From: Cliona cf. orientalis
Lineage: Eukaryota; Porifera; Demospongiae; Clionaida; Clionaidae
Direction: 5' to 3'
Assembly: GCA_963930775.1 (NCBI GenBank)
Contig: OZ005694.1
Span: forward strand, 9,502,899-9,566,898
DNA length: 64,000 nucleotides
A program made the translations under genes and the position numbers. Numbering within the stretch: position 1 is the first letter of the stretch; each line of letters begins with the position of its first letter. Positions 790-62,155 of this stretch are shown piece by piece. The notes beneath the pieces are model-generated. The model saw nothing but the letters and a program-made list of their open reading frames with translations, did no database searches and was not told the origin of the DNA.

Positions 790-2734
790 TTACCCATGAA
801 AAACATCCATTGGAGAAATCGGCTATGGAAGCGGCAGAGAAGCGTCCTTGTCTTGAAGGAAGACGTAGTGAAAGCTGGGGATCAAACCCAGGTCCTAGTG
901 GGATGCCCGTACCAATGAGCTATAACTACGTATGGCCATATCCATGGAACCCTTGGTATTATACTCCCACGAGCGGATTGAACCTTGATCACTCAACAAA
1001 TTTAGTTAGAGATATTCCACCATTGGAACACAGACCAAACTTGGCTACAAATGTCGTTGATTCTTACTCAGCCAATGTAGCTGTAGAAACTAATCAACTG
1101 TTGGAACACGGACGAAAATTGGCTGCATTCTATTCCCACCAACCCGAAGTTCCTGAAGACACATGGCCACCAGTCAAGAAGACACAGTATATAAACTTGG
1201 CACTCATTAGAACGGAACAGGCAATCGATTTTAACAAAGAATTCTTGCGTCAGACGATTCGTGGTTCTATCGATGACATCATGAAGGATAAGGATGACAT
1301 TAAGTATGACGAGGTGTTTGCAGAGGTGGAGGAGGGTAATCGGCTACTATTTGAAGGAAGGCCCGGGTGCGGCAAGACAACCATGATGAACAAAGTATCA
1401 AAAGACTGGGCTAAATGGAAGATCTTTTCTTCATCTCTGCTCTTCTTGGTTCATCTACGGAGGTTTGGAAATCGATTAGATATCGATCTTGAAACTGTTC
1501 TTCGCTCTACACCTGTTAAATTTTCTGATGAAGAAATCAGAGAATTAGCTTCACAGATCGAAAGCAATCAAGGAAAAGGTATTGTATTTGCCCTGGATGG
1601 GCTGGATGAATATTGTCCTGAAAGGAAAGATAAGGAATTCAAGACAACCTTCATACACAAATTAATAAAAAAAGAGGACCTTCCAGAATCTATAGTGATT
1701 GTAGCATCACGTCCAGCTGCTTCTCAGCAATACCGAAGAGATGCTACCAAATGTATTGAGGTGCTAGGATTTTTAAAGGAGCAAATATATGAATATATCA
1801 ATAGTTATTTTGATGGGAGGGATTCATTAGTGGCAGGACTTCGGACATACCTAGAACATCATCCCAATGTCATGCACATGTGCTACCTTCCCCTGCACAT
1901 GGCAATGGTCACATTTCTTTATGAAGTTGAAGGAGCTTCTCTTCCTCAGACTGAGACCGAGATATATCGCCGCTTCACACTTTCAACTTTGCAACGATCT
2001 ATTCGTAAGAGAGATGAGGGCATGATTGATAATGGAGAAGAATTTTGCTGTCAATCTTTCAATGATTTGCAACCAGAGGACAGAGGCATATTTGATTCTA
2101 TTCTTGAACTTGCTTACGAAGCCACTGTAGTCAATCCACAGCAGGTATTCTCAGCTGAAGAAGTCAGAAAATTTACCAGTAGACGATCCAATGACACTGC
2201 AAATAGTGATAATTTGCTTGGTTTAGTAGTTATCGATAAGTATCATGTCTGGTATGGACTCAAAAAGATCTATACCTTTCTGCATCTTACATTTCAGGAA
2301 TTCCTTTCTGCTTGTCATATTGTACAACTTGTTTCTCAAGCCCAGGAGGAAATTATTTTGAAGTATGGCAGTGATAAAAGCTTAGGAGTCGTTTGGAAAT
2401 TTTACTGTGGAATGACACAGTTTTCTGGTGAAAAAATGCGCAATTTCGAACAGTTGGTTGAAAAGACAAAATCTGAGGTACTTCTTCATTTTCGCTGTGC
2501 TCACGAATCACAACAAGATATCTTATGTACACACACAGTAAACTCATATGACTCAAAGATTGTTTTGAATTCGTCACTCAACCCTGCTGACTTCACTGCT
2601 CTGGGTTATGTGCTCACTCATTCTAATGTGCCTGCTACTGAACTTACCATCACTTCACGTAACATTGGTCCTGAAGGTCTGTCTGCATTGGAGAAGGCAG
2701 TCGATGTTTCCTCCCCTCCTCTGAAAACTTTAAG
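790..2734 (+). CDS. NLR copy 1: linker and NACHT exon
   Basis: This 1,945-bp exon encodes the NTPase core of a NOD-like receptor. The acceptor is tatag|TTACCC, which aligns with the acceptor of copy 2 at 30,980; the donor is TTAAG|GTGATT. Visible motifs are a Walker A loop (GRPGCGKTT), a Walker B segment (GIVFALDGLDEY) and a helical region after NACHT that includes FLHLTFQEFLSACH. The exon ends as the first LRR-type repeat begins (LTITSRNIGPEGLSALEKA). NACHT ATPases bind ATP and oligomerise in cytosolic immune receptors. The linker carries one basic KHPLEK...EKRPCLEG unit and a Trp/Tyr/Pro-rich stretch (VWPYPWNPWYYTP) not found in copy 2. No upstream CARD or DEATH exon is visible in the window, so the true start codon is unknown; the first in-frame ATG is at 826. 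Downstream exons join in phase 2. Confidence 0.9.
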
Positions 2735-2826
2735 GTGATTCTAGATTATTAGCATTGTTGTTGGAGTCACATGACTCTAGTAATATGTGTAGAATATTGC
2801 ATAATTATTATAAATTCTCCATGCAG

Positions 2827-16886: not shown

Positions 16887-17732
16887 CGTAAGTGCATTTG
16901 CCGGACCAGTGCATGCAATGAACCAAATTAACTACCGTATAGCTGGAAATATCGGCGGGGAATTAAATTTGGCAGTTTGGCAGTCTACATCACAACCGCC
17001 AAATTAAAATCCGCCAAAATTTCCTACTCGCATATATACGTATGGCGATCCTGTACTGAACCGCCAAATTTAAATCCACAAATATTCTTGTAATAGCGAT
17101 TTTGGGCTCAATCGCCAAATTTAATTCCCGCCAATATTTCTGGCTACACGGTATCTCAGAATAATTGAAATCCTGTGATGTACACTAGCTATATCTCGAT
17201 CGTATACTTACTGTTACTTTTGTCTTCCTCAGGGATTAATTACTGGGTCTCCAGAGAAGGAGGAGGGGCCAGTGGAGGCCACTGGATCGAGGGTGCCCAG
17301 AGAGATAGTGATGACCACACGGACTACTAGGGTACATCAATCTAGCTACCAAGTCTATATTCAGTGCATGCAGACGAGGTAGCTAGGGCATAGTTATATA
17401 GAGCTAGCCTAGGTGTGGTGATCCATGCATGTGACTGCAGTGGAATAACTTAATTAATTTTTATATAGCTCTATTTATTAGGCCCGGTGGTATTTATTAG
17501 CCATATAGGTTGACACAAGCCCTTCTGTATTTATATCAAGTTTTTTTGTACAAATCTACATGTCATAGCCATACATTCTCATGCGCTTAATGCAATGACA
17601 CGTACATGTATTTATTATACAGAGAAGCCTAGGTTGTAAGTTGGTGTGTACCAGTACAAACGGGAGTTTTAATATGTGGGGGTGGAGTTTGAAATGATCA
17701 TAGTGTGCTTCAAATGGAACAAATTATAGTCA
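16887..17732 (+). other. NLR copy 1 3' UTR exon and intergenic gap
   Basis: After the stop codon a donor (CGTAAGT) and a later acceptor (cttcctcag|GGATTAATT at 17,233) suggest a 3'-UTR exon. The same arrangement is kept in copy 2 (about 44,941). An inverted-repeat element fills 16,933-17,153. The rest, up to the paraplegin-like fragment, aligns with 44,808-45,460 and shows no further gene. Confidence 0.55.
16933..17153. repeat. MITE with TACCGTATAGC ends (GCCAAATT family)
   Basis: It begins TACCGTATAGCTGGAAAT and ends GGCTACACGGTA, with internal arms containing AATTTGGC/GCCAAATT. A related copy is at 34,063-34,277. It is absent from the aligned sequence in the second copy of the locus (around 44,850), so it inserted after the duplication. 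Confidence 0.75.
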
Positions 17733-18132
17733 ATGATCATGATGCCTATTTGCCAGTGGCACCAGCGATTGCTCCTGAGTCGCTCCTTCCTATCGAGAGC
17801 AGCAGCCTTGAACTTCTGTGGTGGATGAAGAAGATCTGATCTTTGTAGGAGCATCAGCAGCGCAGTGTTTGTATAATTTTCAAGCTACTACTCTCTATCA
17901 GAACTTGACTGCAATCATTGTCAAGAATGTATCCGGGGAACTTCTCCTGCTATAGCTAGTCGAAGGATTATGTGCTCGCGATCGGGAGGGTGCGGCAGAT
18001 CACAGAGACTGTTCAGATACAGAGAGCCGGGAGGTGTTTCATTGACACAGCAGCGCTTTTCCTCTGATGATAAGAACTACAGAAGGAGTAAGTTTTATAA
18101 GAAAATTCAGTTTGCATTGGCATAGCCACTAA

Positions 18133-19098
18133 GGCCAAGAAAAGAAAATTCTTAGTTTCTCAGGCTTTTTCAGCCAAAAAATGATGCGGGCGGGCGGCTT
18201 TTTATTTTATTTTTTATTTTTTTGGGGCGTGGCCCACCCTTAACCACGCCCATATACGGCCTACCTCGAGCTGAAGTTTGGCTGAAAGTAACTGGAATTT
18301 GCAAGTCTTAGTTAATCTATAATATATACTTATTGCCATAGTAGAACGACGATACCGTGAAATATCACGAGTTCATTGCCGCGTATTGTTACGAGTGTGA
18401 AGCACGAGTAACAATGCAAAAGGCAATGAACGAGTGATATTTCCGAGGTATCGTCGTTCTACTATGGCAATAAGGTATTTATCGTATATTAAAGAAGCCT
18501 ATTCTGTACTGGAGCTTTAGTAGCTCGAGTGGCAAAGCTAAGAAGGGACTGCTTTAAGTTTGGCGATGGCTGCCGTCATTTTAGCACCGAAGACTAAAGC
18601 GTATAGCTAAGTAAGGTAAGGGCAGCGGCACCGTGGCTCATTTATCTAACTTGGGCAACAAAAATGACTGATAGCAGCAACTCACTTTCTTCTCTGGCAC
18701 TCAACGTTCAACCATTATTCAACGTTTCAACACTGTATATATAGCGATCATGCGACGAACACGACTGATATGGATTTTGCACGTGACGAACACGACTGAT
18801 ATGGGAAATTATCATACGTGTTTCCACCCACGCGTTTCCCATATGTTTGTATTACGGGTCAAAGTTCAATATACGATAATTTGTTATAGCATAGCCATCA
18901 GAGAAGCGATTTTGATAAGTTAGATGCCTACTAGAGAGTGTCAAGGCTGATGCTCAAGCACAGCCAGCCAAAGAGATAGAGCGGTAAGCACGACGATAAT
19001 TAAATTACCACACCCACTTAATTAAAAAAAAAGGGGCCCAGCAGCCAAAAACTGATGCGGGCGGGCCTGAGAAACTAAATATTTTTTTTTTCATGGCC
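18133..19098. mobile_element. Harbinger/Tourist-like MITE with a nested element
   Basis: The ends are GGCCAAGAAAA and the inverse of GGCCATGAAAA, with TAA on both sides (18,130-18,132 and 19,099-19,101). The intact paraplegin intron near 45,848 has a single CACTAATC at this spot, so it is an empty site. A TAA duplication with GGCC ends is typical of PIF/Harbinger Tourist MITEs. Inner arms include TTAGTTTCTCAGGC and its inverse. A second element (18,319-18,880) sits inside. Confidence 0.85.
18319..18880. repeat. Element with a 144-bp palindrome, copy A
   Basis: Arms at 18,330-18,356 and 18,447-18,473 (ATTGCCATAGTAGAACGACG and inverse) close a 144-bp hairpin. Beside it lies about 400 bp bounded by TTATCGTATATT and AATATACGATAA. 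A second copy in the opposite orientation is at 40,199-40,766, which confirms that the hairpin and the 400-bp body move as one unit. Confidence 0.85.
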
Positions 19099-19226
19099 TA
19101 ATCATTGTGACTTATATAAATCAGAGAGCTCTAGTTATCTCATACACTAAGGCTACAGTGACATAATATCATAATTACATGTATGATGTGTCTTGATCGT
19201 TGTACTGTATTAAACTTGTACATATA

Positions 19227-19428
19227 CAGTGGAACCCCTCTATTCCGGACACCCTTGGGACAGCTTAAAGTGTCCTGATTAAAGGAGGTGTCCTCATTTC
19301 AGGGGTAGTTTTGTATACTGTTCTAAGTAGATGGGATCGTGCATGGTGTCCTGATTAAAGGAGACGTCCTCATTTCAGAGGTATCCTTATCATAATAATA
19401 ATATTATTATTATGGAGGGGTTCCACTG
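19227..19428. repeat. CAGTGGAACCCC-type MITE
   Basis: It begins CAGTGGAACCCCTCTATTCC and ends GGAGGGGTTCCACTG. The aligned copy beside the intact paraplegin gene is at about 45,965-46,159, and a longer relative is at 62,156-62,632. The CAGTGGA ends are like Tc1/mariner or pogo-type elements. It predates the duplication, being present in both copies. Confidence 0.8.
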
Positions 19429-19666
19429 AATGGGTATTCGCTGGGACACTATGATAGTTGCTAGCCTACGAGTATATTGACTGTGCATAGGTGACCCTGT
19501 TCCCGAAGAGGAGGAGGAGCCAGAGAGACAGAACCACAACGACTGGGCGTGGCTACCGCTCTTTGCCGCACTCACAACACTGGCCTACCTCTGGACTCCA
19601 AAGCAGGATCCCATTCCAGAAGTCTCATTCCCATTCTTCCTGCAACACATGCTCTACACTGGAGAG

Positions 19667-19715
19667 GTATACCAAAACATAGAGTTACTTCTTTCCCAGT
19701 AAACATTGCATTTCT

Positions 19716-19751
<36 letters not shown>

Positions 19752-20169
19752 GGGAGGGTTTCACATTCCGTCGTAAACTTTGATCTCTGGTTGTGTGACT
19801 CAGACTGACCGCTAGCCAACTTGGACAGATGGCCAGGGGTCAATCACCTATTGTTATGAGCCAGGCTAGGCTGTGCCAGGAAGCGGGAACCAGTAAAACC
19901 GGTAAAACCGGCTTGGTTTGCATGTTTGGGTTAGAGTGATTTGCCAGAGTAATGCCGAGTCCAAGTCTTGATGACATAATATCCCTCTCCATGCGTGCGT
20001 GTTCAGTTGTATGTATAATATTATGTATAAAAGAGACTTGCCCACTACAAGGCATGCACGTCTGCTCTTTCATTTCCTTGTTTCTATGGTATTTCTGTGA
20101 CTATAATAAAAGCACCGACAGAATTATTTTTTTTGCTCGACCTGACTTATCGGTAATAATCTTTTACAG
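19667..20169. other. Duplication seam region
   Basis: Homology to paraplegin intron 2 stops at about 19,672. A GA microsatellite (about 19,718-19,754) follows, then unrecognised sequence up to the first PTB exon. A weak candidate exon near 19,803-19,893 (LTASQLGQMARGQ...) could be the missing upstream part of the PTB domain, but the match is not convincing and I do not call it. Confidence 0.5.
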
Positions 20170-23100
20170 GTCAGGAATTGATATCGTGGCCAATCGGTGC
20201 TCTCCGACGGTATGGCGTCAACAACATCTACTTCACCATCGTCACAGGAAGGTAAGCCCCTGTCCTAATTACGCTAATTACGATTGTAAGGCTACAACTT
20301 AACATGGGGGCATTGGTTTTGCTTAATAATTAATTTTTATACGTACGGATGTTATCATGAAAGCTCCATAAAGGAATATTGTGTGATAATATTAAACTTG
20401 TACATATTCTTCTGTAAACATGCAATGTAAATATATACACAATGGGAGCTTTTGAAGAAGCTTAGCGTATCGCACGGAGGGGGGTGCATAATTACCGTGA
20501 GTGTCAGTGTTCCCAGGAGCAAGCCAGCTTAGGACGCCCAGCAAACCCTGAATGTGTGTGAGAGTGCGAGAGCAGCCATTCGCTAGCTCGTTGCATGCAT
20601 GACACAGTTTCCTGTCCTTTTTGCAGTCCACCTGGCCCCAGGGCCTCGTAAGGTAGTTACATGTAGTATACATGCATGTACATGTACGTACGTGTGCATG
20701 CATGTGTGGGCTTTTAGGTTAACCGAGGCATGTTGGTTGGTCACATGTTCATCAGTGGTCCTTGTTTGAGGGAGTCATGCAGGTGTGTGGTGTGGCTTCA
20801 CTCAGCACTTACATATTACAGTGAAGTCCAGCTATACATGTACTGTATATATTTAATATGCCTATACGTAATAATATTGCCAAAATTAATCACTTACAGG
20901 TGTCTGTTTTTGAGGGAATTTTTGCATGCTGTGGCTTCACTGTGGCTCCACGGAGCCGACAATTTTTTTAGCCTGGTCCAAAATTTAATAGTACCATCAT
21001 AATAATATATACTGCTGTATCTACGTAGATCTATGTAGCTGGCCACCTGACGCTTGTGTGTGTCACATGGGCCGTATGTGTGCGCTGGTCGTTGCATAAA
21101 AATGGAGAAAGAGAGAGAGAGGAGAGAGCATGTGGATGGCTTCAGTATGGTGCCACAATGGGGCCCTGTCTGTGCATGTGTGCGTTAATGTGCTCATTAG
21201 GTTTGGCAGTGGCCTGCAGTCAAACTATACAAACCTCGATCCCTCCCTCCATCCCCTAAAAGGACCACAATTACCTGTAAATGCGCCGTCCATAGCACTC
21301 CTCCTACATGTATTTCTCCTCTATAAGCCAACCATATGACTCCCACCTACACTCGTACTAAGATTCTCCTTATTTCACAAGCTAGTATGATACTCAAATT
21401 GCAGTATCTGAGAATTACGTTATAGTTAATACACCCCTACTAGTGCTGTATGGAATATAATGCACGAGTGCAGTAACCACATACAGCACGAGGGCGAAGC
21501 CCGAGGGCTGTATGTGGTTACGCACGAGTGCATTATTCCATGGGATCGACTAAGTTCACCCGGTTTGAAACGGTTACGTCATTGGTCCCACCCACTTCAC
21601 GCGGCGCAGCGCATCGTTGGCCGCCGCGCCGCTAGTACTTGCGCACTCTGAACCACCCATATTAAACACCAAAATTATTTTTGCCATCAACAAAGAAGTC
21701 AGATCAGAGCTAGAGCTAGGGAAGGTTGTGTCTGTCTGTTTGTGCCATGGCCTGAAGAAGAGGTAGTAGTACAGCAGGGATGCTCACGCCTGGAGGAGCT
21801 TGGATTGTTCCCATGTAGCAGACCTACTGCAAAGGTACGTGCACTCATCTTTGGGCTATTCCAGATAATGAGGATACACCCCTATGGAGGAAGGTTGGTT
21901 AGTAATGTAGTATCAAGATTTAAGATGATCTAATGAAGTATTGAGGGCATTTTATGGAATTTAGTGGGGTATTGTAGGCACCATTGTAGATAGTAATGAA
22001 GTATTTGAATATATCAAAGATTTAAGTACACAATTTCCCAATTGATACAGGTACCACAGTCCTATTGCTCAGTAGCTACAGCCTTGGCAATCGCCACACC
22101 CACTCCTCTTTCTGGTCCCAGCTGCATTATGGAAAACATACCCACGTTATGAAAAACGTAAGTACACGGGTTACATGTACATGTACATGTACCACTCCAA
22201 TCCCCTCTCATATAATATAGCCCTTCACATATCTACTGAACAGTAGCAGTATAGTATTTGATTGGCTTAGTACCATTCCTGACCACTTTAGGTACTCTGT
22301 AATTGGATAATAACTGTACATATATACTTGTGTATGTGTACGTGTGTGTGTGCATACATTGTTGTACATGTAGCAATTGGCTATTCAGAATGTTTGTCCT
22401 TAGTTCCCAATGTTTTAGTTTAACGCACCTTCCGTAAGCAAAATTAATATTGAATTCTGTATTGTATAGAGGGAATATTTCCTCTTTGTACAGGACATAT
22501 TTGGCAAAGAGTGAACATCAAAGTGACTATTTTCTATTTATACTGTGTTTTTACATCATTTTAATTTGTGTGTCTGTACTGATAATAATTCTTTTCCACT
22601 GACAATGTATTTCCAGACCTAGCCTTGAGAATTGACCTGGGTACAAGGCTATTCCAGACGTGGATTTTGATGGTCTACCATACGTGTGTACCATAGCTAG
22701 TCACGTTGCCTTTGCATGTGATGAGAGCAGCTCATCAAGGTATCCCATCCTTCAAAGCAGGTACCATTCCTTTGAAGTCCCTTGACACAGTGACGTATGT
22801 AAGGCCAGACCAATTAAATAAGTTGTTGCACGGATTCGCTTGCTCCAATTTTTGGGCAAACAGAACAAAAAAAATTTAATCAACTTGGGTGGAGCTTATA
22901 TAGACGACTTACAGCGTGAACGTTTATCTCATTAAAAAGTGTGAATTGCACTATATCACACGTATGCATACGCCCACTGGTAGTCAAAAATACACTATGG
23001 GTATGGGAAGAAATGCTCTAAAACACACATATAATAGCAAGGACTCTTGCCATTCATCTATCGCCACAATTATGGATACTATATATAGTGGCCGATCTTA

Positions 23101-26100
23101 CTGCACTCAGGCTCTAGGGTGCTGCTCGATTTTTATCGTGTCGTAGCAACTGAGAGTATTTCTATTCCCATATACGACTAATACATTTGAGGCAGCAGCA
23201 AAGGTGCGATCGCGCCTGGTCACACCTCCTGGTGGTCATCTAATCGGCTAAACGTTCACGCCTTAAGTCGTCTATACAATAGAGTGGTTTTTGTATTCTA
23301 TCTTGATTCCCTGGTCCTAGATAGTCACATTAGTCTGTCTTAATTAGATTGTGGTCTATAACCACATCCCAATTTTTTCCTTTTTTCGGTCGCTCGGTCC
23401 AATTTTTACCTCACAATATCCGAGCAACAACAAATTAAATTGGTCTGGCCTAACTACCAGTGAAACCAATCAGTATAATAAACTTAGTATTTCTATACAG
23501 CTTCAAAGTTCCATAGTTTCGTATAGTGAAGACGTGTACTGTGTACACAAGGGAGAGCTTGATGTTGATATGCAATTGCGGATTTGTGGACTACAAAGCT
23601 AATTAAGTTATTAGCAACTTTCACCATTGATTTATGATCAACTGACTAAGAGAGAAAGCTGCTACTGTAGAATCTGCACCTCTACAAGTACCTTCACTAT
23701 TCATTTTAATAAAGATGACTCAGCTCTTGAGCCTGGGTACGAGGCTAATGAGTGCATGCACGTACCCTTGCAATAGGTCTTCTATATGGGAACAATCCAA
23801 GCTCCTCCAGGCGTGAGCATCGATATCCCTGCTGTACTACTACCTCTTCTTCAGGCCATGGCACAAACAGACAGACACAACCTTCCCTAGCTCTAGCTCT
23901 GATCTGACATCTTTGTTGATGGCAAAATTAATTTTGGTATTAGGGTGGTTCAGAGTGCAAGTACTAGCGGCGGCCAACGATGCGCTGCGCCGCGTGAAGT
24001 GGGTGGGACCAATGACGTAACCGTTTCAAACCGGGTGAACTTAGTCGATCCCATTATTCCATACAGCACTAGTAGGGGTGTGTTAACTGGTTTGTATCCC
24101 CACTGTTGACTTAGCACTACAAGTGTGGTGTCTGAGCCTGACCACTGGGCCAGGGCTGTCTGTAATCACTGGACTGGACAGGTGGACTGGATCACTGGAC
24201 TGGACTACTGGACTGACCTTCGACCTTAAATTTATGGGAAATTCTATGCTCGATTTAATGATTTAGTAGAAGGCTTGTTGTACAACAGCTAAGTGGTGCA
24301 ATACAACCGTTTTTAGATGCTTTTCCCTAGCCTCATCTCCAGATTTCTCCCATGACATTGTTATATGCAAGTACCTGTACCATTTCCCACTGATTCCGGA
24401 AATATAATATTATTATGCCTTATTGTCTGTCGATTAGCAACAGTGCCTGGTACAGCTAGACAAGTGGCAGTGTCCCTGAGTCCCCAAGTGCCAAGGATAA
24501 CGCATACCAGGTGGGTTTGGCTTGGAAGTGAAGCCTCAACTTTAAACTTGGCCCTAACTATGCCGACATTAATAGCTCAAAATCTATAGGCCGTGATGCT
24601 AGGCGAATGCCCCCAATTGCTAGGAAGAAAAACATTGCTTAGAGAATCCATCTCTGAGCCTGAAATACCTTATGGGGACCACTTAGCCTAGTGCAATGTA
24701 GCTATATCCTGTACTATAGCTAGCAATCACTGAGAATCTTTGAGGCAAAACATGTACCGTAACTTTCGAGGAAGAAAACTTTCACGAATTTCGCGATTTT
24801 TCAGCCATCCGTGAAAGTTTTCTCCACGAAATTCTAGGCATGCCATACCAATTATGCGACCAGTTTTAGCATTCCGTGAAAGTTTTCTCCACGAAATGCT
24901 TACCGATCCGTGAAAGTTTTCTCCCTCTAAAATTTCCCACTGTACGGTATATCTATAGATAGCTATTCTTTACTACTACCAATACATTAATTTTAGCTTA
25001 TAGTCAATAAGCTAGCTAATTCCTGAATGGTTTTGCTTGCTATTTTATATCAATCTGTGCATAATCAATCAAGGACTTGAGAACAGATTTTGTAGTCTTC
25101 ATGGTCTTTCACCACTTGCGCTAATTGCATGATAATGTGGGTAAAAGGAGGTTGAAGGTCAGTCCAGTAGTCCAGTCCAGTGATCCAGTCCACCAGTCCA
25201 GTCCAGTGATTACAGACAGCCCTGGGCCAGGTACCTGCAGTAGTCAGCTGTACCACAGGGCAATATCATGATATTGCCCTAGCCACAGGGCAATGTCCAG
25301 TATACTGCCCTGGCGGTAGCTTTGATCTACGTCATAGGTGGGATACAAATGTGTGTATAGTATGTATGTATGTATATATGTACATGTATGTATAATTATG
25401 TAGATGCTGTGGCCTAATTACTTATATAGATGCTTGGATTCCGTTACCACCAGAGGTCACGTTTTGTGTATGCAATTTACCAGTCAACCGCTCTTAGAGT
25501 TTAGACACAACTTTCTGATCCGTAAACATCCAATGACCGGATAATTGTATAGCTCTTACATAGGATTGGCAATTTTTAAAACGCCTAGCTTGGCAAACGG
25601 AAGGAGGGGTTGAGAGGGGAGGGGAGTATGTTCTTTTCTTTGTAGAGAGAAAAAAGTACTTAGGTAATGATCTTCTACTATCAAAGCATCCAAATTTGAG
25701 TGTAATTATATCCTTTACATGTAATTACAATTTTTCATTCCCAGGTTCTGCACGACTGGTGAAGGTCGATTCCAGTTCTACACTCCGAACAGTCGTCTGA
25801 TTCACAGCAAGATCCACTCCATAGCGACCCAGAAGGCGGCCACGTCCAGGGAGAGGGCCACCATGCCAAGGAGAGAGAGCGAGGTGAGAACTAAAAAACT
25901 AAAAATTTAAGGAGTGAAAAAATAATAACTGCCGACTGTCTGTAGCAGCAGTGATGGATTAATTTTTATAAAGACAGTGGTGTGCCACTCTATACATTTA
26001 ATCTTAATTTTAGTAGCTTCTATGAGTAATACATGTAATGATACAACTCACTGAAAATTTCACCCGAAATCTGATGTATGACATTTCTTACATGCATGCT

Positions 26101-27627
26101 GATAGTAACAGTTATTGTTATTGCGCTAGCTGATTAGAAAATGCAGACCACCCACTGGACCAGGACCAGGTGTCTTGAGTGCCAAGTAAAGATTGTCCCG
26201 ATCTCTTAGCTGATTCTATGCATCCATTTGTAGCAAGTAAACACATCAATTTCCATTAGCATAAAATTATAGAAATTATCTCTGGTATGCCAATGTCTCA
26301 TAGCTGCCTATAGCCCAGCGGTGGATGGCTCATTACTTAATAATGTTGTGCAAATTATATTCATAGTTTCTCTGGTCCTACTTCAGCTTAATTAGTCTAC
26401 CTAGTGATCATCATGTTATTATTATACGTGAAGTAAATTTCTTCAATCTCGTTAGGCTAAGCGGCACCACTAATAAAAAAAAATGAAATAGTGAGGCTGT
26501 TTTTAGAGTATGTTAATGTTCACATGCACAGCCACGTGCATGTGCTCTAGCGACAAATTTGAGCATATTTAATTGAGTTAAGCAGACCAGGTGTATATAG
26601 CTCTGCTAATGCATTCTGTGATGATGGAGTGAGTGTCCATTTATGAGATTACTACTATGACATTATGAGATTATCCTAATAGCTCATGTTGCCCGGTATG
26701 CGGCGGGAAATTGGTTGCCGGGGGAAACGGCATGTAAACAACGCTGGCTCTGTATGTAGCGTCTACTCGTGCATGACTGTGTGTACTGGAAAAGCCTTTT
26801 ATATGATATTGTTAGGCCTAGTTTGCATATATGAGAAAAACCTTTTATTTATGATCGGGTGCCATGTATGTTATTTGTATGATTCGTGGAAGCGAGTCAA
26901 GTGACATTACTTTCCTGTTTTGACTGATGAAGCAGTTATCCAATTCTAGCTTCAGTCCTTTCCTAGCCTACATACATGTACATGTACGTCCACATACACG
27001 ATATCACTTAGATTCTATAATTATAAGTATGTAGAGTTTGTCTCTGTTTGAGTGGTCATCACTACAAGTTATTAGCTCTGCTATGCAGTAATGACTTGAA
27101 TTAGTTGTTATCCTGGCACCAGCTGTTAGCTGATGGGCTTTGCAAAATACAGATTTTGATAGGGCTATATAAAAAATCTAAGATAGGCAACTGTGAATGA
27201 CTAAGCCTGTCTCTGGGATTTTCATAGGGTAATAAGTCCATCCTCAATGGTAAACATTGGTGTAGGGAGTGACAGGGGAAGAGTCCCATACCTGTTTGTA
27301 CCATTGGATGGAATTTGAGTAATTTGATTTCCTCGTTACAACCATAAACGCAAACTCTCTCTCTCTCTCCCTCTCCACTTGCAGCCTGCTTCACTGAGTG
27401 AGTTGCCGAGGCAGGGAGTGCCATTCGTCAACCCTTCCAACTCTCTCCCTGCTCACATGTTTTCCACATCTCCACCCTCCACCCACTCACACCATCACCA
27501 GCCATACTCACACATCCACCATGCTGTGGTTCCACCCACATCCGTCGAACCTTACGGAAAACTCTCCACCCACAGCTCAGCAGGTAGGACCCTTAATCAT
27601 TGGTAAAGATCAGAAGTTAATTCTCCC

Positions 27628-27663
<36 letters not shown>

Positions 27664-28278
27664 CCCCTCCATTCAGGTATGCACCCTTCGTCTTCCCTGG
27701 CTGCCCCTGACTACAGTAAGCTGCATCACTTCACCACTGGCAGCATGACCAGTCTTGCCAGCTACAACTCTGCGTTCTCAGCTGCCCCAGCTCCTAGCTC
27801 CTCCACCCCCTCCACCAAGTCAATCTCCTGTCCCCCCACCCCTTCACACTCACAACAACAACAGCAACAGCAGAACTTCTGCTCTCACTGCTCCCCAAGC
27901 AAGAACCAATCGTTTACGAACACTCAACACCCCCATCACCATGGTAGCAGTGACCATGTGACATCACATGCCAGTCACATGATCACAGGCTACAGAGCGG
28001 GCAGTAGTGGCTACGTTGTGTCTTCATCACCCACTAAGAATCCTTCCCTCTCTCCCTCTCCCTCCTCCTCCTTCTCAAGATCTGTCCAAGGTTCAGGCAA
28101 ACTTCAGGCCGGTCACGGCAATGGTGGCCGTGCTGGTAGTCCTAGCTTTGTGACCAGCTACAAACCAGGAGCTCCCACCAAGTTTGTGGATCGTGACTGC
28201 TCACTGAGTGAGTCTAGCTTCACTGAATCATGTACTAACTTCAATCATGAGCCATCAACTCTGCAATCTAATGTTTGA
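20170..28278 (+). CDS. IRS-type PTB docking protein (DOK/FRS-like), 5' end missing
   Basis: Exons: 20170-20251, 25745-25883, 27385-27583, 27677-28278, joined in frame with consensus splice sites. The first two encode the second half of an IRS-type PTB domain: QELISWPIGALRRYGVNN then RFCTTGEGRFQFYTPNS, with the LRRYG and GEG core of DOK and FRS2 proteins. Such domains bind NPxY motifs on receptor tyrosine kinases at the membrane. The rest is a low-complexity tail rich in Ser, Pro and His with scattered tyrosines (DYSKL, SGYVV), a likely phospho-docking region. The gene ends SNV-TGA, with AATAAA at 28,416. No convincing exon for the first half of the PTB domain or an initiator Met is found between the duplication seam (about 19,672) and 20,170. 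I therefore treat this as a 5'-truncated copy or a gene whose first exons I cannot recognise. Confidence 0.75.
21430..24082. mobile_element. Long-TIR DNA element with TTAA target duplication
   Basis: The left arm (about 21,430-21,848) and right arm (about 23,749-24,082) are inverted copies over more than 300 bp. Ends are TACACCCCTACTAGTGC and CACACCCCTACTAGTGC, with TTAA on both sides (21,426-21,429 and 24,083-24,086). TTAA duplication is known for piggyBac and Kolobok elements. The left arm has an extra 85-bp hairpin (CACATACAGC...GCTGTATGTG). I see no transposase in the interior, which is further interrupted by the element at 22,803-23,450. It lies in the large PTB-gene intron. Confidence 0.85.
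22803..23450. mobile_element. Harbinger/Tourist-like MITE nested in the TTAA element
   Basis: The ends are GGCCAGACCAATTAAAT and the inverse ATTTAATTGGTCTGGCC, flanked by TAA (22,800-22,802 and 23,451-23,453). A second inverted pair inside (GACGACTTACAGCGTGAACG near 22,905; its partner near 23,250-23,277) gives a hairpin within a hairpin. A fragment with the same end (GGCCAGACCAAAAC) occurs near 46,468. Confidence 0.85.
24148..25231. repeat. Inverted pair with CTGGACT repeats
   Basis: About 85 bp at 24,148-24,232 (GGGCCAGGGCTGTCTGTAAT, then CTGGACTGGAC repeats) recurs inverted at about 25,150-25,231. The arms carry short tandem CTGGACT units. A separate MITE (24,755-24,949) sits between them. 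It lies in the PTB-gene intron, with no coding capacity. Confidence 0.7.
24755..24949. repeat. MITE with TACCGTA ends
   Basis: Same family as 4,032-4,158 and 4,760-4,970: TACCGTAACTTTCGAGGAAG at the left, TTCCCACTGTACGGTA at the right, and internal GTGAAAGTTTTCTCC arms. Confidence 0.75.
25232..25744. other. PTB-gene intron, nothing further recognised
   Basis: AT-rich intron with a short inverted motif (GGGCAATATC...GATATTGCCC near 25,258-25,280) and TGTA-rich stretches. No exon or RNA gene seen. Confidence 0.4.
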
Positions 28279-28415
28279 TGTTCTATTAATTATCGTTGCA
28301 TGTTGTCACATGTGCTGTAATAATTATTGTAAAGCATACTGTACTTTGTGTTGCTATTTAATGATTGTAAAAGTGCTGAATATTGGCTTAATCATCTTGT
28401 TTCTTATTTATTATC

Positions 28416-28421
28416 AATAAA
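28416..28421 (+). terminator. Polyadenylation signal of the PTB gene
   Basis: AATAAA lies 138 bp after the TGA of the PTB gene and about 170 bp before the start of NLR copy 2, marking the 3' end of the upstream transcript. Confidence 0.7.
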
Positions 28422-28520
28422 AGTAATTAATTAGCTCTGTTCTGTGTTGGATTAAAATTTTTTGTGTCATGATTGGTGTATACTATTTGCTGGTAAAGAT
28501 CGTTAATTCTCAATTACAGA

Positions 28521-28532
28521 TGCGCATGCGCA
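28521..28532. promoter_or_regulatory. NRF-1-like palindrome upstream of NLR copy 2
   Basis: TGCGCATGCGCA is a perfect palindrome matching the NRF-1/alpha-Pal consensus, about 60 bp upstream of the predicted ATG of NLR copy 2. A related GCGCATGCGT occurs just upstream of the ITFG1-like start (about 57,508-57,517). Promoter function is inferred. Confidence 0.45.
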
Positions 28533-28591
28533 AAATGATCAACCCCACCCCTTGCGCTGTGCATGTGCTGATCTGGCAAACGAGATCGAAA

Positions 28592-30615
28592 ATGGTCGAC
28601 GCTGGCTTGGTATGAATCATTTATAAGATCAGCTAAATGCTATTGATTGTCTTCTACTGTATCGTTTTTAGACTGGTCATGGATTAAAGACCCTTTGGGA
28701 CCATTTTGACGAACTGGTGGACGCTATTACTGACCCAGATGCGCTCGCAGAAGAAGCATGTGAAGTTGGTCTGATTCATCCTGACTGTAAACAAATGCTT
28801 CACTTATTTCCCGCTGACGCCAAGACAAAGACTCGTTCTCTGCTTCAGTCTATCGAAGGAAAGATAAAAGATCAACCTATCTGCTTCCATGTATTTCTTG
28901 CTGTACTAAAGAAGCTACCTGGACTAGCAAACCTTGGAGCCACACTCCAGAAGATTTATGGTATTACTTCAGTAATTGCATGGCCCCTATGAGGCTATAA
29001 TAATAATATTTTTATGTGGCATGGGGTGTATCCAAATAGTCAATATAGTAAGGGAGCTTGTCCAAAGTCCTTGTGGAAAAATGAACGTCATTATGACGTT
29101 AACTTTTTACCCCCCTCCCCCCCCCCCTCTCTTAACATCACAGCATTTCAGCATAGATTCAACACTGAAACTCTGATTCTGCTCTATTCAGCCTATAAAT
29201 TTGGTATTCACTTGTATTCTACAGTGCTAGCTATGGATTCATTGCATACCTGTGCTTCTTTGACTGTTTCTTGCTTGCCTGTAGCTACGTGTACACATTT
29301 AGCTACATAGTGCTTGACACAGTTGTCACTAAAATGCAAATTTTGACACTGCTGGAGGTGTGTCTAGACTTGTTCAACCACAAGAATGCATAAAGCTCAA
29401 GTCTGCTGACAGTGCAGTTGTAAAACGTCATGGGCCAAGACACCCTCCCCCCCCCCAACGTCATAATGACGTTAATTTTTCCACAAGGTCTTTGGACAAG
29501 CCCCCTAACCAGCATTCTTATTAAATTTTTAGATGATAAAGTGACATCCAGAGTTAGTGACAGTGCAAATCCTGATTGTGTTGGATGTTCTACCGTCATA
29601 ACAGAGTCTAACTCTTGTGTACACCAGGATGAGGCTGTCGCACCACAGCAAGAAGATAATGGGAGGTCTGGAGGATCCAGAGATAGTGCAGGTAGCAGTC
29701 ATGCTAGATCTATTATTAATTTGGCATGTGCTCTTATGAAATACATACCAAATTCTGATAAAATTACAACAATCACGAATCTGATCGATTCACCTAATAT
29801 TATGTTAGCTAGCTAGTGACTGTTGGTTCCCCTAGTTGAAGGATTGCATGCACAGGAAATCATTTAATACCACATTATGTGTAGAGTATAACACACTTTC
29901 TGTGGGTTTTCTCACCACAAACCATTTAAGTGGCTGATTGCAGCCCAGGAGGGCTGCAGGTGTAGTCGGCTGATAAGCTAAGCGTGTATTGCAGTACAGT
30001 AACTGTGTAGACCTCACCACTCGTGGTTAATTTGTAGCGAGATGTTCTATAGATTGTTGGCACTGTCACCTGATCATGAATATAATTATTCTGGCTAATA
30101 AGCATAATGCAGTGGTATGTGTATGCGCCCAACATGATAAAGGATATACACTGATAGAGTGCAGCCACCCCTGCGAGGTCAGAATTCCCATGAAACAATA
30201 GCTAATAACGAGAAGATGTGCGCTTAATAAGTATTATGTATTGGGTATACTTAATAACCAAAATTTACGATAATATTATAATATGCACGTATCTTTATTA
30301 CAGTGCTTGATGAGATGCCAGAGCTGCATGAGTTGCAACGTCTTTGTAGAGGCGATGTTGTCGTTAATATAATCAGAGCAGTAGCACCATCCTGGGAATC
30401 GTTTGCGCTGTGTTTAACGATGGACAGAATCATGATTGATATATGGAAAAGAAATGCAGATGAAGTTGAAGATGCCACTAGAAAACTATTTGGTCATTGG
30501 TTAGAAGGTAATGGACGTCAACCCATTTCTTGGAAGACGCTGATCCAGGCTTTACGTGAAAATGACCTTCCCATGATTGCCACAAAGGTGGAAGAAATTC
30601 TAACTGGTTCTTCAG
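28592..30615 (+). CDS. NLR copy 2: CARD and DEATH exons
   Basis: Four exons form the N-terminal signalling part. Exon 1, 28592-28609, encodes only MVDAGL. Exon 2, 28672-28960, encodes a CARD-like helical domain (ELVDAITDPDALAEEACEVG ... LLQSIEGKIKDQP). Exon 3, 29533-29691, is a Ser/Asp-rich linker. Exon 4, 30304-30615, encodes a DEATH-fold domain (SWESFALCLTMDRIMIDIW ... ISWKTLIQALRENDLPMIA). All junctions are GT-AG and keep frame (phase 0, then phase 1 throughout), joining the NACHT exon at 30,980. CARD and DEATH domains recruit partner proteins by like-with-like contacts. The start is chosen because the 18-nt exon is in frame with the CARD exon and lies just after a promoter-like GC-rich patch; an 18-nt exon is unusual and deserves transcript support. 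No equivalent exons are visible for copy 1. Confidence 0.85.
29052..29505. repeat. Harbinger-like MITE between CARD and linker exons
   Basis: The ends GGGAGCTTGTCCAAAG and the inverse CTTTGGACAAGCCCCC are flanked by TAA (29,049-29,051 and 29,506-29,508). Arms extend about 50 bp, including AACGTCATTATGACGTT, and both carry C-rich runs. The right end lies 27 bp before the acceptor of the linker exon at 29,533. Confidence 0.85.
30087..30271. repeat. MITE relic, CTGGCTAATAAGC family
   Basis: The left end (ATTCTGGCTAATAAGC) and right end (CTTAATAACCAAAATTTACG) are degenerate versions of the family at 5,254-5,644. It lies in the intron before the DEATH exon. Confidence 0.5.
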
Positions 30616-30836
30616 GTGAAATATTTATAAGTCAGCTACATACAGATAAAACAAATGCCCATGCAATTCGTAATGCTCATAATGTACTCTGTGTTGTTTT
30701 CTTATGCATAAAATTAATGATGTGTGTGCATGCAATTGCCTCGTACCCAGTGCATGCATGCGGTAACAAAACTCCTTATTATATGGGACATTTCAATATG
30801 ATATCACTAAATATTTAACTTAAGAAGATTCTACTA

Positions 30837-30869
<33 letters not shown>

Positions 30870-30979
30870 ATTTATAGATAACTCCCTAACTTGTAGACCA
30901 TCCATATGTACATTAAGGCTGGTGCATGAGCTAGCTAGCTTATATGGTACTATTGAGATAATAATATAATTTATAATAG

Positions 30980-33014
30980 TTATCCGTGAAAAACGTCCAT
31001 TAGAGAAAGTAGCTGAGGAACCACCAGAGAAGCGTCCTCGACTTGAAGGAGAACATAGTAAAACAAGTGACGTTGATTCTCACTCAGCCAACATAGCTAT
31101 ATATATACATGTAGATAGTAATCCAGTCGTCCTTGACAAACATCCATTGGAGAAATTAGCTGAGGAAGCAGCAGAGAAGCGTCCTCGACTTGAAGGAGAA
31201 CGTAGTCACTGTGAAACAAATGACGTTGATTCTCACTCAGCCAATGTAGCTATAGATAATAATCCAGTTGTCTGTGAAAAACGTCCATTGGAGAAATTAG
31301 CCGAGCAAACAGTAGAGAAGCTTGAAGGAGAACGTAGTGAAACAAATGACGTTGATTATCACTCAGCCAATGTAGCTGCTATAGATAGTAATCCACTGTT
31401 GAAACACAGACCAAACTTGGATGCATTCTATTCCAACCAACCCGAAGTTCCTGAAGGCACATGGCCGCCAGTCAAGAAGACACAATATATAAACTTAGCA
31501 CTCATTAGAACAGAACTGGCAATTGACTTTAATAAGGAATTCTTGCGTCAGACGATTCGTGGTTCTGCTGATGACATCATGAAGGACAAGGATGACATTA
31601 AGTATGACGAGGTGTTTGCAGAGGTGGAGGAGGGTGCTCGGCTATTATTCGAAGGAAGGCCCGGGTGTGGCAAGACAACCATGATGAACAAAGTATCACA
31701 AGACTGGGCTAAGGGGAAGATCTTCTCTTCATGTCTGCTCTTTTTAGTTCACTTACGGAGGTTTGGAAATCGATCACATATCAATCTTGAAACTGTTCTT
31801 CGCTCTACTCCTGTTGAATTTCCTGATGAAGAATTTCGAGAACTAGTTGCGCAGATTGAAAGCAATCAAGGGAAAGGTATTGTATTTTCCCTGGATGGGC
31901 TGGATGAATATTGTCCTGAAAAGAAATATAAGAAGACCACCTTCATACACAAATTAATTAAAGGAGAGGTCCTTCCAAAATCTACAGTGATTGTGGCATC
32001 ACGACCAGCTGCTTCTCAAAAATATCGAAGAGATTCTACCAAATGTATTGAGGTGCTTGGATTTTTAAAAGAGCAAATATATGAGTACGTAGATAGTTAT
32101 TTTGATGGGAAGAAGAACAAGGATTCGTTAGTGTTTGGACTTAAGACATACCTGGAGCATCATCCCAATGTCATGCACATGTGCTACCTTCCTCTACACA
32201 TGGCAATGGTCACGTATCTTTACAAAGTTGAAGGAGCTTCTCTTCCTCAAACCGAGACTGAAATCTATCGCCACTTCACACTTTCCACTTTACTACGATC
32301 TATTCGTAAGAGAAATGACACAGAGATGGAAACTGATGATGAAGAATTTTATTTATCTTCTTTTGATGACTTGAAGCCAGAGGATAGAGACATACTTGAT
32401 TGTATTCTTAAATTTGCTTATGAAGCCACTGTAGTCAATCCACAGCAGGTATTCTCAGCTGAAGAAGTGAAAAAATTCAATGATAATTTGCTCGGTTTAG
32501 TAGTTTTCGACAAACAATTTGCAAGATATGGACTCAAGGAGATCTACACCTTTCTACATCTTACCTTTCAAGAATTCCTTTCTGCTTGTCATATTGTACA
32601 GCTTGATTCTCAAGCCCAGAAGGAAATTATTTTGAAGTATGGGAGCAATAAAAATTTAGGAGTTGTTTGGAAATTTTACTGTGGAATGACACAGTTTTCC
32701 GGTGAAAAAATGCACAATTTCGAACAATTGGTTGAAAAAACAAAATCTGAGGTACTTCTTCATCTTCGCTGTGCTCACGAATCGCAACAAGATGTCTTAA
32801 GTACTCACATAATAAACTCATATGACTCAAAGATTGTTTTGAATTCATCGTCACTTAATCCTGCCGACTTCACTGCTCTGGGTTATGTGCTCACTCATTC
32901 TAGTGTTCCTGCTACTGAGCTTTCCATCACTTCATGTAACATTGGTCCTGAAGGTCTTTCTGCATTGGAGAAGGCAGTCAGTGTATCACCTCCTCCTACT
33001 CTAAAAACATTAAG
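30980..33014 (+). CDS. NLR copy 2: repeated linker and NACHT exon
   Basis: Acceptor ataatag|TTATCC, donor TTAAG|GTGATT; 2,035 bp, all open. The exon starts well upstream of its first ATG (31,147). Its first 130 or so residues hold three imperfect tandem units of about 40 residues, of the form KRPLEKLAEE...EKRPRLEGE...NDVDSHSANVA, with basic KRPRL patches that could act in nuclear entry or binding (inference). The NACHT domain follows, with Walker A GRPGCGKTT and Walker B GIVFSLDGLDEY. The winged-helix-like region (FLHLTFQEFLSACH) and the start of the first LRR come next. The sequence is closely similar to copy 1 through NACHT but differs in the linker, which in copy 1 has a single unit plus an aromatic-rich insert. 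Confidence 0.92.
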
Positions 33015-33103
33015 GTGATTCTGTTCGGTACATTGTTGTTGGAGTCACTTGATTATATATTATTATAATAATATCATCATGTTGCATATTTTATATTTTA
33101 CAG

Positions 33104-45460: not shown

Positions 45461-51107
<5,647 letters not shown>

Positions 51108-52851: not shown

Positions 52852-57499
<4,648 letters not shown>

Positions 57500-59361: not shown

Positions 59362-60082
59362 AATGAATCTGATATGAAATCTAGTGCTAGATCACAGGTG
59401 ACTAGATATAGATGTGGATTGTGCGGCTGGCTAGGCTCTATGGTGTTTCCTATCCACGTCCACGTCGACGTTGTGAGAGAGCATGCGGGCATGCGGTTGG
59501 TCATTATATATAAATATCATTATGTAACCACTGAACCTTGCCCACTTCCTGTGGTTTGTAAGCATGTGGGAAACAATACAGTGGCCTAAGTCTCGTGCTC
59601 ATCCCCTCCTATGCGTATGCACCACTAGCGCTACTGGTGGACATTCTAATCACAAATCGCAGGATCTGTCAAATATAAAGTGCTTGTTCTCATTTAATTT
59701 GTAAGTGAAATCATACTATCCCAGGGTTCTCCCCAGAATTTTGAGTGGGAGTAAATCTTTAGATGTGTAGGGGGATACAAGCCTACAGCCTATAGTAATG
59801 GACTTGTAAACTGTGGTTACTATGAAATTAGTGGTTAATTGACTATGGCACTCCCTGGTTACTATGGAATTAGTAGTTGTAGGCATGCCCAAAGCATTTA
59901 TGTAGCCATTTGCAGTGCATCGTAGCTAGGTGAAATTTGAGCTAGCAACTGGTTGGCCCTTTACCAGAACCAACCAGTGTGGGGAGAACCCTGCCATGCC
60001 CTATAGCTATTTTGTACAGTGAATTACATGTACTATTTTTGTATATCTATGTAGCTATATACTAGCAGACGATCTAATCGAA
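59362..60082. other. Intergenic, upstream of the CARD exon
   Basis: Holds an inverted pair typical of small MITEs: TCCCAGGGTTCTCCCCAGAA near 59,719 and GTGTGGGGAGAACCCTG near 59,978. No exon or RNA gene seen. Confidence 0.5.
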
Positions 60083-60464
60083 ATGGCAGAATCTGTTGAA
60101 TTTGAAATTCTCATTCGCCACACAACTGATCTTCAAGTAGCAGTCAGGGCAAATCTCACTCCCCTCGGTGCTCAACTTGTCTCTGCTCAAATTATCACTC
60201 ACGGCCAGTATAGTAAAATCAGAAATGCCCACCGACCAGTGGACGAAAGGGGGGCTGATTTAGTTGAATATATCCAAAACAAAGTGCTCCAAAATCCTCA
60301 GCATTATCATACTTTTATTGATGTTCTACGGAGTGATCTGTCCCAGTATGGGGATATTCTAGCGAAACTAGAGCAAGCTAGGTTGTCACAGGTATCGGAG
60401 CGGCAATTCGTGATCCCACAACCCCCACCGCTGAGAAAAGACGACAATCAACTTCCTGCTCAAG
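60083..60464 (+). CDS. First exon of another CARD-domain gene
   Basis: The ATG opens a frame MAESVEFEILIRHTTDLQVA that encodes a CARD-like six-helix pattern (LTPLGAQLVSAQIITHGQY ... LVEYIQNKVLQNPQHYHTF ... LRSDLSQYGDILAKLEQ), followed by a Pro-rich linker (VIPQPPPLRKDD). A donor follows CAA-G|GTATCT at 60,464. The length and layout match the N-terminal exons of sponge NLR genes, so a third NLR or a CARD adaptor is likely, but the next exon is not recognisable in the remaining window. The reading frame continues past the donor for about 50 codons of low-quality sequence, which I regard as intron. Confidence 0.65.
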
Positions 60465-62155
60465 GTATCTTGTTTTTGTTGGTCTTATCCCGATTCTGCA
60501 TGTATACAGGGGACATTTCCAGTCTTGGACCCCTCTCCCCCCACCCCTTTACTAAATGGCGTCATGGACTTGAAGACAGTGGTGGACAACTGACATATAT
60601 ACTTGTAGCTAGAACAATCTAGCTCAAGGACATAATTATTAATTCATGCTAATATTAGCATCATGGCCCAGACCCCCTCCCCTAGCCCTCATGATGATGT
60701 TAACGTCGTAGCTAATGGCTCTAAATCTATTAATTTTTAGAAAGATATCATATGTGTAGTTACTATATTATGTGACTAGATCTGAGAAAACCCGCCATAT
60801 TGGTCAATCCATGAAAATTTAGTTAGCTGTATATTTGGATAGCTGTATCATAGGGCTAACCTGCTTCCAAGTCTGACACATCGCGTACTTTTGTTGTGGA
60901 GATACAGTGCTTTGTTTGCAATCGTGCCACACCCTCAATAATCGAGAAATTACGGTCTAAAGGCGTTGCTATGCACGTGTATGGCATTTCTGTATACTAC
61001 GCATGAACCGGAAATGGACCTGGGTACGGTGGAGCCATTCGAAATGAACGTAAAGATGGAGCAAAGGTCGGATTTCGATGTTGACAACGTCGGCAATTGT
61101 TCTTTGATGCCCAAGAAGCTAAAAAGGTGAGCGAACGTACAGTAGTTCGATGAATCTAGCTGTAACCAGATAGAGAATTCTAATTAGCGCCCATAGCAAC
61201 GGGCTCCGTGTACTGCAGCTATACTGACTACGTAGGTCAAAATGAAGGCTTATTTCGCCTTGGTAATTAACTTACGTTTACCCTCCGTAGGCGGTGGCAA
61301 CAGTTAGTAGAAGGATTCTTTGACATAAATATGGCAAAAACTGGACTTTGATATTTTTTGATTGTTGATACTACTAAAAACGCGCATTGCGCCATATGCG
61401 CGTTTGACAAATATGCCGGGTCATCTCAGATCCGGTCACATATTATATACTGGGCATAATATATTTCGCATGACCGACGTACCATAGTATATATTGTATA
61501 CAATACGCGTACAGCTGTACCATTTCGGTGCTGTGAGATTTATTGGGGCGAGCCTGAGTTAACCCAACATATGGTTTGGCACCAATGGTGTTCTTTATTA
61601 GTGGTAATACAAACAGGGTTTCATTTAGGATTTTTGTCAAGGGGGGGGGGGGGGCAAACGCGACAATTTCGGAGTTAAGGGGGGACAAAGATTAGTATGT
61701 TTTTCCATCCATGAAGAATGACGTGCTCATTAACTTAATTATATTAGGGGGTCTGGGGGTATGCTCTCCCAGGAAAATTTTTTAATGTTTCAACCTCTGA
61801 GACTGTTTCTGGTGGCTTCTGAGCGCTAGGATGGGGAAAGTCTGTCAGTAATATCCACTAGTTCCCCTCTATTTCATGTCAAATGTTTGGGATGTTTGTC
61901 TCCTGCCACGCGTAGCGTGAAGCCTCAGCTAGTTTATGGCTTAAAAATAAGCATAACTGCCGCTTTGGACACTTTCACCATTTAAATCTTTTACTTGTGC
62001 ATGTATTGCATGTATGGATGATGGCTACTCTCAGGGGGGGGGGGCGAGTGACTCCCTCCCCCCCCCCCAAATGAAACCCTGACAAACAAACATGCATGCA
62101 AATGTATGTATGGTTGTTAATTATCTTCTAGTGTTACTTTGAATTATCTCATATA
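60465..62155. other. Unresolved region after the CARD exon
   Basis: Contains one doubtful short exon (61,014-61,126), poly-G and poly-C runs near 61,641 and 62,034, and fragments typical of degraded MITEs. No exon of the CARD gene can be supported. Confidence 0.4.
61014..61126 (+). CDS. Possible short first exon
   Basis: An ATG opens MDLGTVEPFEMNVKMEQRSD and runs to KKLKR, where a consensus donor follows (AAAAG|GTGAGC). The same segment recurs in degraded form at about 63,725-63,835 (GAATGTAAAGATTGAGCAA), where the frame is closed. It could be the first exon of an unseen gene or part of a repeated element; no family recognised. Confidence 0.3.

Follow-up and report, generated by a model that had tools for sequence, protein, structure and literature searches.

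The demosponge Cliona cf. orientalis carries, on contig OZ005694.1 of assembly GCA_963930775.1 (C6 in the following; 11,331,844 bases), an array of NLR genes interspersed with pieces of two neighbouring genes, one for a paraplegin-type m-AAA protease and one for a DOK-type docking protein. The stretch analysed here (C6:9,502,899-9,566,898; 64,000 nucleotides, referred to as the window) contains an NLR gene followed by the truncated 5′ end of a paraplegin gene, the 3′ half of a DOK gene, a second NLR gene and a full paraplegin gene. We searched the genome (216.8 Mb, 149 contigs) for each of these elements; all own-genome matches are confined to contigs C1-C19, and the locus counts are lower bounds. 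Within the array, the sequence itself was read over 200 kb at the left end, the window, seven junction stretches and the right edge, and the remaining loci are given as match positions. Copies and remnants are labelled by their position on C6 in Mb (e.g. 9.0063). A search of the literature found no report of this NLR-paraplegin-DOK array.

In a self-BLAST comparison of the window, the first NLR gene and the paraplegin exon 2 behind it pair with the second NLR gene and its paraplegin across exons and introns (83-93% identity in Table 1), as had been proposed from the bare letters of this DNA (the original prediction), with many indels and insertions breaking up the alignment. A GC-rich (~51%) stretch with long minus-strand frames within NLR copy 1 (12,500-15,249) shares no match of at least 100 bp with NLR copy 2. 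The abrupt end of homology postulated in paraplegin intron 2 is real, but lies at 19,681 (equivalent to 46,412) and not at 19,672/46,403. The homology to DOK begins at 19,678, which corresponds to C6:8,958,319 in the parent gene. Directly behind this seam, a docking gene without its 5′ half had been expected, and indeed the PH exon and the first PTB exon are missing there; a complete 5′ end was sought at 19.7-20.2 kb, which holds solely the internal exon at 20,170. The window copy has neither a PH domain nor a complete PTB domain, the first PTB exon lying left of the breakpoint. It also contains an insertion that is present neither in the parent nor in the DOK copy at 9.006 Mb and holds a 300-bp inverted repeat (21,540-21,843/23,757-24,054, 92%).

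The intact PTB gene that had been predicted upstream exists, albeit ~564 kb from the window seam, at the left edge of the array; it points the same way, and the part of it that was copied starts at 8,958,319, precisely the base that matches the seam. Its PH-PTB stretch, for which the exons were joined by eye, matches PH (6e-10) and IRS-type PTB (1.9e-13) in Pfam, both above cut-off, and its best PDB chain is DOK5 (1j0w, E=1.3e-16). The PH exon has a single match in the genome, and so do the 1,119 bp immediately left of 8,958,319, whereas the DNA immediately right of this position occurs five times, parent and window counted. This contrast points to a duplication with its left end at 8,958,319. 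The DNA of the window seam, which we call seam A, likewise recurs at C6:9,006,463, 9,227,864 and 5,711,860 (minus strand) with 84-92% identity. As neither chance nor a single mis-join explains one seam at four diverged loci, the window seam is, judged from these comparisons, an ancestral breakpoint that was copied and not an assembly error. The earlier claim that the seam is the breakpoint itself thus holds for its nature, but the window harbors just one of four copies of the ancestral junction. The stop codon of the terminal DOK exon (E5) is TAA in the parent and TGA at the same codon in nine of ten printed remnants; it is lost in the tenth.

What had been described as a local pair of NLR copies is duplicated, but belongs to an array of at least 26 NACHT exons, all on the plus strand of C6 between 8.966 and 9.779 Mb. 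Further NACHT exons are found on the minus strand of C6 at 5.58 and 5.67 Mb and at C8:1,380,381-1,382,123, the latter with 80% identity to the array; the next matches outside reach at most 57%. None of these 29 exons has a stop in the matched stretch. The NACHT exon also gives a weak LRR_6 match (E=0.009), and later exons show repeated LRR-like frames. Ends of paraplegin exon 2 occur at a minimum of 25 plus-strand places (8.98-9.79 Mb) and three minus-strand places (5.55-5.71 Mb), paraplegin 3′ exons at 16 places, and an exon of an FG-GAP gene at nine. The FG-GAP domain match is weak (E=0.024, Pfam); the label 'FG-GAP gene' stems in part from the original prediction or from ourselves, and the gene may be ITFG1-like. 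The order within the units repeats: a DOK piece or a block with a CARD-like exon, then the NLR, then paraplegin. Paraplegin runs into DOK at 11 seams of three types (A, B and C; Table 1), and gene pair and direction are identical in all 11. Homology to the array stops near 9,804,720, past the last copy of the FG-GAP gene, which follows paraplegin; compared with the window and the left-end 200 kb, the 10 kb beyond contain short matches alone. Of the two outer genes that had been expected to be intact, DOK is whole at the left edge, while paraplegin at the right edge is known from an exon 2 end and the 3′ exons of another copy, identified by matches. Some 3.2 Mb from the main array, the minus strand of C6:5.54-5.71 Mb carries a smaller, inverted array part with two NACHT exons and seams A and C, which suggests that an inversion or transposition split the array. 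Two extra scraps of E5, ~68 bp each, lie at 5.544 Mb.

Table 1. Features of the window, the parent DOK gene and the seams. Positions refer to the window unless marked C6 or Mb; M, PTB3, E4 and E5 are DOK exons.
Feature	Position	Strand	Remarks
NACHT exon, NLR copy 1	1044..2735	+	Open frame; C6:9503942-9505633
Copy 1/copy 2 match	1,047-2,932 = 31,342-33,209		84.6%, self-BLAST
Copy 1/copy 2 match	16,089-16,934 = 44,009-44,855		87%, self-BLAST
Copy 1/copy 2 match	17,152-18,132 = 44,854-45,855		83%, self-BLAST
Copy 1/copy 2 match	19,098-19,681 = 45,852-46,412		93%, self-BLAST
Paraplegin exon 2, 3′-truncated copy	19491..19666	+	Donor GAG/GTATAC at exon end, phase 0
Seam A, paraplegin intron 2 to DOK intron	19678..19681	+	4 bp in common (CATA); sequence comparison
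Middle PTB exon (M)	20170..20251	+	Acceptor expects phase 1
Insertion in DOK copy	21421..25348		~3.9 kb
Last PTB exon (PTB3)	25745..25883	+	
C-terminal exon E4	27385..27589	+	
Terminal exon E5	27677..28278	+	With stop codon
Open frame between DOK remnant and NLR	28672..28989	+	CARD/DEATH-type by eye, no Pfam match
Open frame with DEATH domain	30282..30815	+	Pfam E=3.7e-4, slightly below curated cut-off
NACHT exon, NLR copy 2	30970..33015	+	682 amino acids; Pfam NACHT E=3.9e-23
Full paraplegin-type gene, exons 2 to 18	46222..51098	+	All exons open
Point equivalent to seam A in intact paraplegin intron 2	46409..46412	+	Sequence comparison
Seam T, FG-GAP gene end (minus strand) to CARD-bearing block	57456..57458	+	CTA in common
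CARD-like exon upstream of next NLR	60023..60619	+	Pfam E=0.09, weak, below curated cut-off
Parent DOK, PH exon	C6:8,947,931-8,948,803 (frame)		Left of breakpoint
Parent DOK, first PTB exon	C6: ends ~8,951,717		Left of breakpoint
Parent DOK, M	C6: from ~8,958,974		Right of breakpoint
Parent DOK, last PTB exon	C6: ~8,960,595-8,960,733		Right of breakpoint; two C-terminal exons follow
Seam A loci (four places)	19,678; 9.0065, 9.2279, 5.7118(-) Mb		Paraplegin intron 2 / DOK C6:8,958,319
Seam B loci	8.9807, 9.6740, 9.7703 Mb; 9.4427 Mb with shorter paraplegin		Paraplegin intron 11 (~49,167) / ~125 bp other DNA / DOK C6:8,962,865 inside E5
Seam C loci	9.0925, 9.1955, 5.7004(-) Mb		Inside paraplegin exon 6 (47,348) / DOK C6:8,960,331; 2-3 bp in common

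With a probability of roughly 85%, we consider the seam to be a copy of an ancestral tandem-duplication breakpoint, accompanied by DOK halves that were putatively retained. Adjacent units share orientation and order, with all 26 NACHT exons on the plus strand, and the seam joins the 5′ part of one outer gene to the 3′ part of the other, with outer copies at the edges. The core of the original prediction, a tandem duplication from inside the PTB gene to inside paraplegin, agrees with the breakpoints found on both sides, the parent at the left edge and the CATA overlap. The duplicated segment extended from inside DOK (the intron before M) across the complete NLR gene and into intron 2 of paraplegin. 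The sequence shows its head-to-tail duplication, joined at the 4-bp match, with the paraplegin 5′ end running into DOK exons M, PTB3, E4 and E5, and it shows that later rearrangements copied seam A to four places and made the other seams. Given the 2-4 bp overlaps and the filler at seam B, the seams probably originated by end-joining or template switching. The units were probably kept because each brings along a complete NLR gene whose NACHT exon is open, and the DOK halves would have stayed translated and constrained after their separation, until broken by mutation; the simplest route would be via transcripts from the duplicated paraplegin promoter.

The notion that the DOK halves were retained rests on their substitution patterns. 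Over exons PTB3, E4 and E5, the pairwise ratio of nonsynonymous to synonymous rates (dN/dS) is 0.12 between remnants and 0.10 between remnants and parent, rows with a broken frame having been dropped for the exon concerned. In order to exclude shared history, we also counted own-branch changes, i.e. changes seen in one sequence alone, with exon M added and the two most deleted remnants (9.7701 and 9.4425) left out. The synonymous/nonsynonymous counts are 9/2 for the parent, 6/3 for the window copy, 7/2 for 9.2276, 7/4 for 9.1955, 5/3 for 9.0915, 10/2 for 9.0063, 13/15 for 5.7045, 9/14 for 5.6950 and 1/3 for 9.6738, with no changes in 8.9797. Pooled over eight remnants, this amounts to 58 synonymous and 46 nonsynonymous changes, where neutrality predicts a nonsynonymous share of 0.719 (p=3e-9), and to 25/12 in the four remnants picked for their open frames (p=7e-7). 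Treated as pseudo-codons in each of three frames, the neighbouring intron looks neutral with a nonsynonymous share of 0.71-0.74, and the DOK exons therefore seem to have evolved as protein-coding DNA after the copies separated. In a cruder comparison over seven common rows, exons changed 1.2-4.0x more slowly than the intron in all six remnants. Of the remnants with a broken frame, 5.7045 gives a weak signal in the own-branch counts (p=0.03) and 5.6950 none (p=0.17); 9.0063 looks constrained but recently broken, with a stop in paraplegin exon 2 and frameshifts in DOK. Consequently, the DOK halves appear to carry a signal of purifying selection, and 'truncated' need not mean dead.

Several observations weigh against this interpretation. 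The own-branch counts are small, and those of the B copies (1/3 and none) are uninformative. Five of 11 remnants (9.0063, 5.7045, 5.6950, 9.4425 and 9.7701) have a DOK part with a broken frame or an internal deletion. In the same seven rows, the exons of the parent changed faster than its intron (ratio 0.61), so that rates alone are not to be relied on. A tree of the 465 bp of E5 shared by ten rows, which omits the two most deleted remnants, does not cluster by seam type; it is star-like, with six of seven inner branches unresolved, which makes gene conversion among the copies likely, and we claim no order of the A, B and C events. On the paraplegin side, exons 2-6 of two C copies show 5/7 and 3/4 own-branch changes (8 synonymous, 11 nonsynonymous), which fits neutrality. 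Two of the three C copies are disrupted in exon 6, 9.0915 by a stop and 9.1955 by a loss of frame. Finally, the donor of paraplegin exon 2 is in phase 0, whereas the acceptor of M expects phase 1, so that a direct fusion is out of frame; in the window, it would read E-V-R-N-stop.

Some of these points suit the view that the DOK halves are inert debris and that gene conversion passed the selection signal of the parent on to them: the star-like tree, the parent's own-branch exon rate not falling below that of the intron, and three remnants that are broken on both sides of the seam (9.0063, 5.6950 and 9.4425). Yet the changes confined to single remnants are biased towards synonymous ones next to an unbiased intron, and seven remnants with more than 90 synonymous sites differ from the parent by a synonymous divergence (dS) of 0.145-0.215 (0.12 and 0.07 in two remnants with short overlaps). 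We therefore regard inert debris as the less probable account, though one with a real chance of being correct.

Relative to seam A, seams B and C include a longer part of paraplegin and a shorter part of DOK, and hence cannot be trimmed forms of it. This raises the prospect that all seams are deletion products, i.e. that full paraplegin copies with fuller DOK copies behind them once stood in the array and lost their middles separately, as identical joints would result from a long-range deletion from a unit with full paraplegin to a DOK unit. Where B and C are concerned, deletions between adjacent units are as likely as separate duplications. As a general account of the seams, however, deletion appears unlikely, since neither the PH exon nor the 1.1-kb stretch that precedes the DOK breakpoint has a second match, and at seam A the repeated DNA begins exactly at the seam. 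For the ~125-bp filler in seam B, no source was found in the window, the left-end 200 kb or the other array stretches read.

Because of the phase mismatch, a retained DOK protein would need another start, exon skipping, a shifted acceptor or a different 5′ partner, and the plain fusion from exon 2 to M, for which an in-frame reading was sought, is out of frame. Splicing from exon 2 to E4 would connect phase 0 to phase 0, and from exon 1 to M phase 1 to phase 1, the phase of exon 1 being deduced from the acceptor of exon 2. In three copies (window, 9.0063 and 5.7045), use of an AG that lies five bases into M would bring the reading back into frame; as the 9.2276 copy matches the parent there, this is a lead at most. 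We also dropped a fused DOK-NLR protein, given that the E5 stop is kept in 10 of 11 printed loci (the parent and nine of ten remnants). A different 5′ partner could be the single PH/first-PTB half itself, with the DOK 3′ halves serving as alternative 3′ cassettes in trans- or long-range splicing. The phases would allow this in the seam-A copies, where the first-PTB donor and the M acceptor are both in phase 1 and the paraplegin exon 2 donor is mismatched. It is nevertheless very improbable, as type B remnants are devoid of a native DOK acceptor and C remnants of exon M, and as the splicing would have to bridge ~30-820 kb, or >3 Mb in the case of the copies at 5.7 Mb, across intervening genes.

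An origin of the seam in assembly error or unmerged haplotypes, for which one might invoke the 81 haplotypic duplications removed in curation and the primary k-mer completeness of 60.5% given in the consulted part of the assembly report (PMC12639293), is next to negligible in view of four diverged loci, the absence of N in the 200 kb read at the left end, and units that stand in tandem order and differ by ~4-30%.

The paraplegin copies themselves have had different fates. The full copy in the window matches AAA (2e-41) and the M41 peptidase with its HEAGH motif (4e-20) in Pfam. In the PDB, AFG3L2 (1e-123) scores above paraplegin (2e-101), the latter over a shorter chain, so that either label may apply; 'paraplegin' derives in part from the original prediction, and our mapping starts at exon 2. 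Genes for m-AAA proteases are usually low-copy. Read exon by exon, three of four full copies are open over exons 2-18, with 9.0645 frameshifted in exon 9, and their own-branch changes number 18/6 in exons 2-11 and 27/8 in exons 12-18; by this measure, the full copies read look functional. Exon 2 has 95.6-100% identity in all 15 copies examined and is broken by a stop or frameshift in three of 11 truncated copies. Over exons 2-11, the B copies show 6/9, 2/2 and 9/3 changes, and 8.9797 has a stop in exon 11. Taken together with the counts given above, the paraplegin halves of the C copies look relaxed and those of the B copies mixed; the DOK halves, for their part, live on in several copies.

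The seams also bear on the N-terminal modules of the NLRs, with the caveat that both the DEATH and the CARD assignments are weak in Pfam. The DEATH exon is found at nine places, by position all nine in units after a DOK-type seam; none was seen in two of the 11 post-seam units (after 9.2279 and 9.4427), nor at the first NLR on the parent side. The CARD-like exon at 60 kb of the window occurs at 16 places in the main array, in each case before an NLR and in 13 of the 16 after full-paraplegin 3′ exons, as well as once at 5.60 Mb and at eight places on C2, C10, C11 and C14. Accordingly, the type of seam tracks the effector module that fronts the NLR. The CARD-bearing block joined to the FG-GAP gene at seam T also follows a full paraplegin end at C6:9,033,082.

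The growth of NLR families is often inferred from gene trees, while here the joints themselves are readable. With three breakpoint types, a single uncut parent and short overlaps, the order and mechanism of such an expansion could be worked out base by base. The fate of the bystanders is visible as well: 16 places hold 3′ exons of a mitochondrial-type protease, and the truncated adaptor genes are apparently still under selection. It is conceivable, albeit tentative, that the DOK 3′ halves now constitute a small family of PH-less docking-protein genes on duplicated paraplegin promoters or other 5′ exons, which the NLR expansion would have repeatedly made and kept. Should the half-genes prove to be expressed, new adaptor proteins would be a further product of the tandem expansion of immune receptors.

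Like Dok4/5/6-type docking proteins, the DOK parent combines a PH with an IRS-type PTB domain, whereas the array copies are devoid of the PH domain and of at least about one third of the PTB domain, counted from its start. In Drosophila yakuba and Drosophila simulans, the parts of the studies considered here describe tandem duplications whose breakpoints inside genes give 5′/3′ hybrids, as in Cliona, often with new expression (PMC5460883, PMC4503668). Those duplications are recent and segregating; here, one seam is found at four loci next to two further types, and most remnants have reached a dS of 0.145-0.215. The demosponge Dysidea avara likewise has expanded NACHT families, with CARD- or DEATH-NACHT-LRR genes for which duplication is proposed as the driver; Cliona is not named in the passages considered (PMC12909245). 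In the same passages, the Dysidea NLRs are distributed over all chromosomes, with some clusters and a few near-identical neighbours. By contrast, the Cliona genes described here form a 26-unit array that carries neighbouring non-immune genes along.

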